Below the pieces are notes generated by a model. The model made no database searches. It worked only from the letters and a program-made list of their open reading frames with translations, and was not told where the DNA came from. Of a stretch of DNA of 64,000 nucleotides, positions 58,207 to 61,579 are shown in pieces. Within the stretch, counting starts at the first letter, position 1. Each line of letters opens with the position of its first letter. The stretch covers positions 1-64,000 of the forward strand of contig VEQK01000004.1 of NCBI GenBank assembly GCA_018883265.1. The letters run 5' to 3'. This DNA is from Rhodocyclaceae bacterium. GTDB taxonomy: Bacteria; Pseudomonadota; Gammaproteobacteria; Burkholderiales; Rhodocyclaceae. The translations under genes were made by a program, and so were the position numbers.

Positions 58207-59298
58207 ATGAACTCTGGAGTTGCTGTGAATCGTCCCCGTAATGATCTTTTTTTGCGAGCCTTGCTCAAAGAGCCTACCGAAACGACGCCTGTCTGGCTGA
58301 TGCGCCAGGCCGGGCGATATCTGCCGGAGTATCGCGAAACGCGCAAGCGTGCCGGGAGTTTCCTGGGGCTTTGCAAGAATCCGGCTTATGCCTGCGAGGT
58401 GACGCTGCAGCCGCTGGCGCGTTATGACCTTGATGCAGCCATTCTTTTTTCGGATATTCTCACTGTCCCGGACGCCATGGGCCTGGGTCTGTACTTTTCC
58501 GAAGGCGAAGGTCCGAAGTTCGAGCGTCCGCTGCGGGACGAATGGGAGATCCGTAACCTCTGTGTGCCCGATCCCCATGACCAGCTACGCTATGTCATTG
58601 ATGCCGTCGCCGAAATTCGTCGGGCGCTGGATAACAGCGTACCGCTCATTGGTTTTTCGGGCAGCCCGTGGACACTGGCTTGCTACATGGTAGAGGGTGG
58701 CGCCTCCGATGACTACGCACGCATCAAGACGATGTTGTACGATCGACCGGATCTGATGCACAAGATCCTGGAGGTCACGGCCGAGTCGGTCATTCAGTAT
58801 CTGAATGCCCAAATCGAGGCCGGCGCGCAGGCCGTGATGGTTTTCGATTCCTGGGGCGGTACCCTGGCCGAGGCAGCGTTCCACGAATTTTCGCTCAATT
58901 ACATGAAACGGATCATTGCGGGTCTGCACAAGACTTGGGACGGTGCGCGCATTCCCTCTATCGTCTTTACCAAGGGCGGCGGGCTCTGGCTTGAGGCATT
59001 GGCGGACACGGGCGCCAATGGGCTGGGATTGGACTGGACCATTGATATCGGCAAGGCGCGTGTCCGCGTCGGTGACCGGGTGGCGCTGCAGGGTAATCTG
59101 GATCCGACGATTCTTCGTGCCGGCCCGGAAGCCGTAGCGCGCGAAGCGGAAAAAGTGCTGCGTAGCTTTGGTGCTGCCGATACCGGTCACGTTTTTAATC
59201 TCGGGCATGGTATTTCACAATTCACCCCGCCGGAGAACGTTGCAGTGCTCGTCGACACCGTGCATTCGGTCAGTCGCGCCATACGGGCGGGCCGCTGA
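58207..59298 (+). CDS. hemE: uroporphyrinogen decarboxylase
   Basis: Converts uroporphyrinogen III to coproporphyrinogen III in heme synthesis. [19 protein letters not shown] holds the substrate-binding arginines and [12 protein letters not shown] the catalytic aspartate; [17 protein letters not shown] and FNLGHGI are further hallmarks. 363 residues; GTG 58225 is an alternative start. It follows ntrX by 23 bases and may be read from the same transcript. Confidence 0.97.
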
Positions 59299-59398
59299 GG
59301 CGGCTCTTGGGAGCCCGTCCGCATGGTAACGGCATAATCTGAGTGCAAGGTAGTCCCGTGGCCGGTTTCACCCTGTCAAGAGGCCCGATCCGAGCTTC

Positions 59399-59419
59399 TT
59401 ACCCACAAAGTTATCCACA
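59399..59419 (+). promoter_or_regulatory. tandem DnaA boxes upstream of priA
   Basis: A perfect TTATCCACA (59411-59419) is preceded 12 bases earlier by TTACCCACA (59399-59407), one mismatch from consensus, same orientation. They lie about 82 bases before the priA start, in a 202-base spacer otherwise without evident features. A role in DnaA control of priA is inference. Confidence 0.65.
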
Positions 59420-59500
59420 ATGGGGATTTGTCGGTTTTCATCGACTAAACAATGGGTTGCGGGTTTGTGCAGAGAAGCCCGTTAACAAATATCCTCTAAC

Positions 59501-61579
59501 ATGGTGCTTTCGATGAGCGGACAAAACCTCCTGGAAAATCCGGAGGTTGCATGGCGTTTACGCGTCGCGATTGATGCCCCGTTGGCGTCCTGCTTCGATT
59601 ACCTGGGGCCGTTGGACGTGACGCCGGCAGACGTGGGTTACCGGGTCGTTGTACCCTTCGGATCCGGTCGGCGGGTGGGGCTAATTCTGGAGGTGCTGCC
59701 CCTGCAGGATGCGAGCGACCCCTTGGCCCCCGGTTCAGCCAGCCTCAAGTTGGCCGAGGTTGTCTTACGTGACCTGCCGCCACTACCAACGGACTGGATG
59801 GATTTGTGTTTGTTTGCGGCCAGCTACTACCAGGCGGCTCCGGGTGAGGCCCTGTTACAGGCAATACCGACGGGGTTGCGTAAACCTGATCCGACCAAGC
59901 GACGCTCGATCAAGCGGGTTGAACCTGCACACATCGCTGCGACGTCGCTGCCTGAATTGACGGCGTGTCAGAGCGCGGTGCTCACCGAACTGTTGCCTCG
60001 ACTTCAGGGATATTCGGCAAATCTGCTCTTTGGTGTGACGGGCTCGGGTAAAACCGAGGTCTATCTGCGCTTAATCGACGATGTACTCGCAGCAGGCAAG
60101 CAGGTATTGGTACTGGTACCCGAAATCAATCTAACGCCGTTGTTGGAAGCGCGTGTTGCCGCGCGCTTTCCGGCAGTGACGGTGGTTAGCCTGCATAGCG
60201 AAGTCACTGAAGCCGCTCGTGCCCGATATTTTTCTGCGGCGCTTGGTGGTGAGGCGCGCATTGTTATTGGGACCCGGCTTGCTGTGTTTACGCCGATGCC
60301 GGATCTGGGGCTGATCATTGTGGACGAGGAACATGACCCGGCCTACAAGCAACTCGAAGGCATGCGATATCACGCGCGTGATCTGGCCGTCTGGCGCGCC
60401 CGTCAGCTGACTGTGCCAATTGTGCTCGGTTCGGCGACGCCTTCGCCCGAGAGCTGGTCCAACGTACAGAGTGGACGCTACAAACGTCTCGATCTACCCG
60501 AGCGTGCGCACGCCGAAGCCGTGTTGCCGACAGTGAGCTTGCTCGATACGCGACGGCTAACACTCGACGAAGGATTGTCTCAGTCGCTGCTTGAGGCGCT
60601 GGCTCAGGGCTTGACCGCCGGCGAGCAAAGCCTGCTGTTTATTAATCGGCGTGGCTATGCACCGGTGCTCACCTGCACTGCCTGTGGCTGGGTATCGAAC
60701 TGCCGACGCTGTGCGGCGCATCGGGTCGTACACCGAATGGATCGCACGCTGCGCTGCCACCATTGTGGTGACACCTCGCCGATTCCACGTCAGTGCCCTG
60801 ATTGCGGCAACGCCGATTTGCGGCCGCTGGGCCGTGGAACGCAGCGCATCGAGGAAGCCTTGCAAAAACATTTCCCTCAGGCACGGATACTGCGCGTCGA
60901 TCGCGATGTAGCAACCACACGCAAACAGTGGGAAGCGCTTGAGGAACAAATCCGGTCTTGTGAGGTCGATATTCTGGTCGGCACACAGATGCTGGCGAAG
61001 GGTCACGACTTTCCGGCATTGACGCGGGTTGGCGTGGTCGGGGCCGATTCAGGGTTGTTTGCGGCCGATTGGCGTGCACCGGAGCGGCTGTTTGCCCAGC
61101 TCATGCAGGTGGCCGGTCGCGCGGGCCGCGCAGCACAACCGGGGCGGGTGATTGTTCAGACTGAACATCCCGAGCATCCGCTCTATCAGTGCCTGCTTCG
61201 TCACGATGTGCCGGGCTTTCTGGAAATGGAATTAAAAGAGCGGCAACGCGCCGGATTTCCACCTTACGCCTCGCAAGCGATCGTGCGTGCCGAGGCAAAG
61301 CAGCTGCAGACCGTGCTGGAATTTCTCGGACGAATTCGAACGCTGGTTTCAGCCGAGTCCCATCCGGACGTATTTATGTATGACCCGGTGCCCATGCGCA
61401 TGGTCAAGCTGGCAGGTCGTGAGCGGGCCCAACTGTTGATCGAGTCGCCCAGCCGCATCGCGCTACAGAATTTTCTGAATGACTGGTTGCCAAAAATCAG
61501 CGCCGGGCGTGGTATGACGCGGGGTCATGCACCGGGGGGCGTAAGGTGGGGCGTCGAGGTCGATCCGCTGGAATGCTAG
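59501..61579 (+). CDS. priA: primosomal protein N', replication restart helicase PriA
   Basis: A 692-residue DEXH helicase that reloads the replisome at stalled forks. The N-terminal DNA-binding domain is followed by Walker A GVTGSGKTEVYLRL, helicase motif DEEHDPAYKQLEGMRYHARD, and the paired zinc-binding cysteines CTACGWVSNCRRC and CHHCGDTSPIPRQCPDCGN inserted in the second helicase lobe. VAGRAGRAAQPG is motif VI. ATG 59513 is an alternative start. Confidence 0.97.
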   Translation: MVLSMSGQNLLENPEVAWRLRVAIDAPLASCFDYLGPLDVTPADVGYRVVVPFGSGRRVGLILEVLPLQDASDPLAPGSASLKLAEVVLRDLPPLPTDWMDLCLFAASYYQAAPGEALLQAIPTGLRKPDPTKRRSIKRVEPAHIAATSLPELTACQSAVLTELLPRLQGYSANLLFGVTGSGKTEVYLRLIDDVLAAGKQVLVLVPEINLTPLLEARVAARFPAVTVVSLHSEVTEAARARYFSAALGGEARIVIGTRLAVFTPMPDLGLIIVDEEHDPAYKQLEGMRYHARDLAVWRARQLTVPIVLGSATPSPESWSNVQSGRYKRLDLPERAHAEAVLPTVSLLDTRRLTLDEGLSQSLLEALAQGLTAGEQSLLFINRRGYAPVLTCTACGWVSNCRRCAAHRVVHRMDRTLRCHHCGDTSPIPRQCPDCGNADLRPLGRGTQRIEEALQKHFPQARILRVDRDVATTRKQWEALEEQIRSCEVDILVGTQMLAKGHDFPALTRVGVVGADSGLFAADWRAPERLFAQLMQVAGRAGRAAQPGRVIVQTEHPEHPLYQCLLRHDVPGFLEMELKERQRAGFPPYASQAIVRAEAKQLQTVLEFLGRIRTLVSAESHPDVFMYDPVPMRMVKLAGRERAQLLIESPSRIALQNFLNDWLPKISAGRGMTRGHAPGGVRWGVEVDPLEC

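Follow-up and report, generated by a model that had tools for sequence, protein, structure and literature searches.

What do two tandem DnaA boxes do between hemE and priA in the window (the whole stretch of 64,000 nucleotides analysed here)? The initial annotation had described a perfect and a near-perfect box in direct repeat, 12 bases apart, upstream of priA and 38 kb from the origin, and had proposed that DnaA either regulates priA from this site or is titrated by it. Our reading of the sequence agreed with this description. Both boxes lie on the same strand as a direct pair, with a start-to-start distance of 12 bp and the gap aag, and the first of them differs from the consensus TTATNCACA at one position. 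The pair was placed in the hemE-priA gap, and the product of priA passed the family models TIGR00595 (564.6 bits, cut-off 230.35) and NF004067 (888.1, cut-off 763). The distance of about 38 kb to the origin was also correct, because dnaA and a cluster of boxes were found at about 20.2-21.9 kb in the window.

The box pair and its setting in the hemE-priA gap

The features of the region are collected in Table 1.

Table 1. Features of the hemE-priA region (positions in the window)
Feature	Position	Strand	Sequence	Remark
hemE, upstream neighbour	58207-59298	+		ORF; name by inspection only
DnaA box, DARS-type core position III / datA-type box 3	59399-59407	+	TTACCCACA	read directly
Spacer	59408-59410	+	AAG	3 bp, between boxes III and II
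DnaA box, position II	59411-59419	+	TTATCCACA	perfect; read directly
Place of the inverted third box, I	59425-59433	-	GATTTGTCG	TGTGGATAA on the + strand in relatives; box lost here
IHF-like site	59447-59459	+	AAACAATGGGTTG	8/9 consensus positions
Genus-conserved block	59482-59501	+	GTTAASAAATATCCKCTAAC	adjoins the priA start; no known motif
priA, replication restart helicase	59501-61579	+		692 aa; alternative ATG at 59513

Single boxes with up to one mismatch were not enriched in the window (32 against 27 expected), and the whole genome contains 26 perfect copies of TTATNCACA and eight copies of TTATCCACA, box II among them. When the spaced pair was searched for as TTANCCACA-N3-TTATCCACA with up to two mismatches, it occurred at only two places in the whole 1.86-Mb genome, the priA pair and one other, and the reversed control pattern was found at none. 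A pair of such spacing and quality did not appear in any of 2440 Markov-simulated upstream regions.

The pair was identical in all five genomes of the genus (the window's included; loci L003-L007 and L035, of which L006 and L035 are probably the same contig); the PriA proteins of the other four genomes were 82-87% identical to that of the window. In the alignment of the gap from the five species, the longest invariant run had 22 columns and corresponded to the pair plus one base, and 28% of the columns outside this run were invariant. A crude estimate of the probability that such a run arises by chance gave 2e-10, which is strong evidence, within a set of related sequences, that the pair is under constraint in the genus.

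Two further features lie between the pair and priA. The IHF-like site, at +36 from box II, matched at least eight of the nine consensus positions in 5/5 congeners and all nine in L005 and L007, and we infer that it serves as a working site. Within the block that adjoins the priA start there are two stretches of 8 and 5 invariant columns, among the longest found outside the boxes, and the block is perhaps a promoter or leader; a scan of positions 59100-59700 gave no consensus sigma-70 promoter or terminator. A hammerhead-like Rfam match on the other strand (59268-59337) was below threshold, with an E value of 0.86, and was taken as chance.

The element upstream of priA in other Betaproteobacteria

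We scanned 135 priA upstream regions, with minus-strand matches re-oriented beforehand. They were taken from the closest loci, from other families of the order and from named genomes (Dechloromonas, Azonexus, Azoarcus, Collimonas, Duganella, Ralstonia, Caballeronia, Achromobacter, Thiobacillus and others). These sets are related and partly overlapping, so that counts of loci are not counts of independent trials. Of the closest priA loci, 30 had sequence, and every one of these carried DnaA boxes upstream of priA; the pair was detected in 80 of the 135 regions, 74 of them outside the genus and nearly all of these betaproteobacterial. Whether the boxes recur upstream of orthologous priA genes, a check on which the initial annotation had made its proposal depend, was thus answered in the affirmative, the pair being kept in 5/5 congeners and in 74 other loci. 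Among 31 additional regions from other families of the order, a recognisable element was missing in about ten.

Outside the genus the pair was part of a longer arrangement, which in its full order consists of a far DnaA box, an IHF site, the 3-bp-spaced pair and often an inverted third box. A match to the IHF consensus (at least 8/9) was located at -107 to -112 from box II in one fixed orientation in 68 of the 74 non-genus loci, and the far box TTATGCACA (up to one mismatch) was located at -172 to -191, about -176, in 62. Box I, the third and inverted box, which follows box II at a distance of 5 bp (up to two mismatches), was recognised in 44 loci and missing in 30. The spacer was AAG in 46 of the 74 elements, and the position of box III was mostly occupied by a TTNYYCACA-like sequence. 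The core of L029, for example, reads TTACTCACA-aag-TTATCCACA-gaatt-TGTGGGTAA. The gap that houses the element measures about 400 bp in relatives and about 200 bp in the window, and HemE tblastn matches flanked the element in the relatives tested (L122, L124-L126, L133, L137, L138 and L142).

In the genus of the window most of this arrangement is absent. The place of box I differs from TGTGGATAA at seven of nine positions in the window and at seven or eight in all five congeners. None of the five congeners has the far box, the IHF site at -109 or box I, and the best match to the IHF consensus at about -106 to -113 in the genus reached only three or four of nine positions. What is left is the pair, the IHF-like site at +36 and the conserved block at the priA start.

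Two groups of loci deserve separate mention. In Oxalobacteraceae and in genome G043 (L031, L043, L045, L049, L052, L055 and L098), two copies of the core were found upstream of priA, at about -550 and -110, and in L031 and L045 the far box TTATGCACA was repeated as well, a pattern that resembles duplication of the element in tandem. Upstream of priA in the uncultured gammaproteobacterial contig AH-324-A07 (L101), the sequence TTATCCACA-att-TTTTCCACA-aaaac-TGTGGATAA was found at -99 relative to the priA match and is accompanied by an IHF match at -109, which suggests that the element may be older than the Betaproteobacteria.

Likeness to datA and DARS and a second site between xseA and exbB

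In E. coli, datA switches DnaA off by IHF-dependent hydrolysis of the bound ATP, and the DnaA-reactivating sequences DARS1 and DARS2 switch it on again by releasing ADP, which stimulates initiation. The three sites were extracted and scanned in the same manner as the priA loci. The DARS core and the orientations and intervals of datA were considered as published requirements (PMC5742627); DARS2 also requires IHF and Fis (PMC4245941), its Fis-binding sites lying between the IHF site and the distal DnaA box. The core of DARS1 was TAATACACA-tgg-TTATCCACA-ggaat-AGTGGATAA and that of DARS2 TTCTTCACA-act-CTATCCACA-gaaaa-GGTGAATAA, both with box III (+), 3 bp, box II (+), 5 bp and box I (-). Spacing and orientation were identical in many of the relatives. 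In our scan the IHF site of DARS2 was at -99, on the side of box III and in the same orientation as in the relatives, whose site at -109 is one helical turn (about 10 bp) farther out. Unlike the DARS loci, which in E. coli are found at bioD-uvrB or rppH-mutH, the element of the relatives is at hemE-priA and has a directly oriented far box at about -176.

This far box is a point of likeness to datA. The intervals box 2-IHF-box 3 of datA are 65 and 97 bp, and the relatives show the same orientations, with intervals of about 67 bp (far box to IHF site) and about 97 bp (IHF site to box III); closeness to the origin is a further likeness. In contrast to datA, the relatives have a close direct box pair after the IHF site and often the inverted third box of the DARS type. 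The essential low-affinity box 7 of datA adjoins box 2, and inspection by eye of two relatives gave no clear box upstream of the far box. Features of both systems therefore fit the element of the hemE-priA gap. In the window, by comparison, boxes III and II of the DARS core are present and box I is lost, and the IHF site of DARS2, found in 68 of the 74 relatives and in L002, is absent, as are the far box and the IHF site of the datA arrangement. Neither datA nor DARS is thus complete in the window.

Apart from the pair at priA, the genome has a single near-copy, L002 (G000:C7:22015-22049; L002:1501-1535). Its core, CTATCCACA-aag-TTATCCACG-atttt-TGTGGATAA, has the complete III-3-II-5-I arrangement of DARS1 and DARS2; it is located between xseA and the exbB-exbD-lpxK cluster and has its IHF match at -111. 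A DARS-like core was present at the xseA-exbB locus in many genomes of the family, usually without the far box. When head-to-head boxes with any gap of 0-25 bp were collected from 101 family genomes, the gap was exactly 5 bp in about 94 of 99 places (hand count). Distances from dnaA were worked out by hand for those family genomes that have large contigs, some genome lengths being rounded, and came to about 17-270 kb for the priA site and mostly about 0.3-1.9 Mb for xseA. This parallels the placement in E. coli, where datA is nearer to oriC and the DARS loci are mid-replichore. A search of the window's own genome for an element with datA geometry (box-IHF-box), made with exact patterns, which are insensitive, found none.

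Other DARS-like sites were observed in the course of the scan. In L120, L121, L123 and L179 the core TTATCGAGA-gag-TTATCCACA-gtttc-TGTGGAGAA and its variants had no IHF match and adjoined genes that by inspection resemble an integrative element. In L115, L116 and L182 the far box stood at about -189, and a plus-oriented IHF match was seen at -98; by inspection, there is an Hsp70-like gene near L115 and a metG-like gene near L182. An identical 23-bp site, TTATCCACAGGAAATGTGGATAA, was found three times in genome G007 (C5:29095, C12:36045 and C30:18467).

A reading of the hemE-priA element as oriC was rejected, given the separate dnaA-linked box cluster at about 21.7-21.9 kb in the window and the distance of 1.1 Mb between element and dnaA in genome G040.

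Possible roles of the pair

Taken from the sequence comparisons, our preferred reading is that the tandem boxes are probably the pair retained from an ancient betaproteobacterial element of the datA/DARS class, of which the genus has a reduced version that would still serve as a docking site for DnaA. Binding of DnaA to the pair is very likely, because the boxes are conserved across orthologous priA upstream regions. Since the element includes an IHF site, a far box and the geometry of datA and DARS, an origin as a DnaA nucleotide switch appears at least as likely as one as a transcription factor site specific for priA.

That DnaA acts instead as a transcription factor for priA is nevertheless quite possible. 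The pair, together with the IHF-like site, would then tie restart capacity to the initiation cycle, and the likeness to datA and DARS would be secondary. DnaA-regulated promoters include those of uvrB, which adjoins DARS1, and of dnaA itself, and the boxes at priA are likewise close upstream of a gene of DNA metabolism. Between the end of the pair and the priA ATG there are 81 bp, which include the IHF-like site; the pair has been kept in the genus despite the loss of the distal parts, and the element accompanies priA in different families, even in G040, where priA is 1.1 Mb from dnaA. However, our scan located no promoter, priA of E. coli has no box (up to one mismatch) within 400 bp upstream, and one of the two copies in Oxalobacteraceae is about 550 bp upstream of priA. 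Moreover, a similar core with an IHF site at xseA-exbB is found without priA, so the build is not specific to this gene. The regulatory idea of the initial annotation is consequently favoured by the conservation of the boxes at priA and weakened by the finding that the ancestral element is more than a box pair. Control of priA by DnaA remains plausible, above all in the genus that keeps only the pair nearest to priA.

A division of labour between the two loci can be proposed tentatively: the hemE-priA site would be the equivalent of datA, promoting hydrolysis of DnaA-bound ATP, the xseA-exbB site would be the equivalent of DARS, and the genus would have lost the datA function. The far box, the IHF site and box III, all oriented as in datA and with intervals that deviate from those of datA by no more than about 2 bp, suit the first assignment, as does the nearness of the hemE-priA site to dnaA in the family genomes; the strong I-II-III core, the IHF site at about -110, the usual lack of a far box and the mostly mid-replichore position of the xseA-exbB site suit the second. 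This proposal has to contend with the presence of the DARS-core box I in 44 of the 74 hemE-priA elements and with the lack of a clear datA box 7 in the two relatives inspected; gene-order reasons of its own may also account for the position of priA near the origin in many genomes.

Passive titration of DnaA by the pair, the other suggestion of the initial annotation, is improbable. A pair of consensus-grade boxes, located close to the origin and replicated early in the cycle, would be suited to it, but titration needs neither a fixed spacing and orientation nor an IHF site or a constant neighbour, it accounts poorly for the strictly conserved spacing and the invariant 22-bp block, and two boxes are a small sink in a genome with the number of perfect consensus boxes given above. 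Chance intergenic 9-mers without function, for which the chance-level frequency of single boxes in the window could be cited, are hardly credible, being contradicted by the conservation and position of the pair and by its absence from the simulated regions.

For the preferred reading of a retained and reduced element, the following mechanism can be envisaged. The pair most likely would bind DnaA cooperatively. In the full element, a bend introduced by IHF would bring DnaA bound at the far box into contact with DnaA at the pair, and the oligomer formed in this way would alter the nucleotide state of DnaA, by hydrolysis as at datA or, alternatively, where the third box is present, by release of ADP as at DARS. 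The genus, which has neither the far box nor that IHF site nor the third box, would have lost the reach of the far box, and its pair would act locally, either by influencing transcription of priA or by docking DnaA in conjunction with the IHF-like site at +36; the complete DARS-like core is kept at xseA-exbB in the window's genome. The sites, their conservation, their geometry and their loss are read from the sequences, from which we infer the binding of DnaA and IHF, any nucleotide switching and any effect on priA. Genes for IHF alpha and IHF beta, which score over their cut-offs, were found in the genome, as was one for an Hda-like protein that falls short of its curated cut-off; this makes an IHF- and RIDA-based DnaA cycle plausible in this organism. 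A more specific version, in which a composite hemE-priA element (datA-type box-IHF-box plus DARS-type core) and the xseA-exbB site couple the DnaA nucleotide cycle to PriA expression, and the pair of the genus acts on priA only, seems to us rather doubtful.

The systems datA and DARS have been described in E. coli and close relatives. In a literature search that covered mostly papers available without subscription, we found no link of DARS or datA to priA or to hemE-priA, no DARS locus named in Betaproteobacteria and no effect of DnaA on priA; one review mentions beta- or gamma-proteobacteria generally, without naming a locus (PMC5742627). The hemE-priA element, clear in the sequence, is thus undescribed in the papers covered. 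With two fixed predicted loci in Betaproteobacteria, the generality of DnaA inactivation and reactivation by non-coding DNA would become directly testable, and the reduced form of the genus offers a natural experiment on which parts of the element matter. If the reading is true, the control of initiation would be tied to the restart gene priA.
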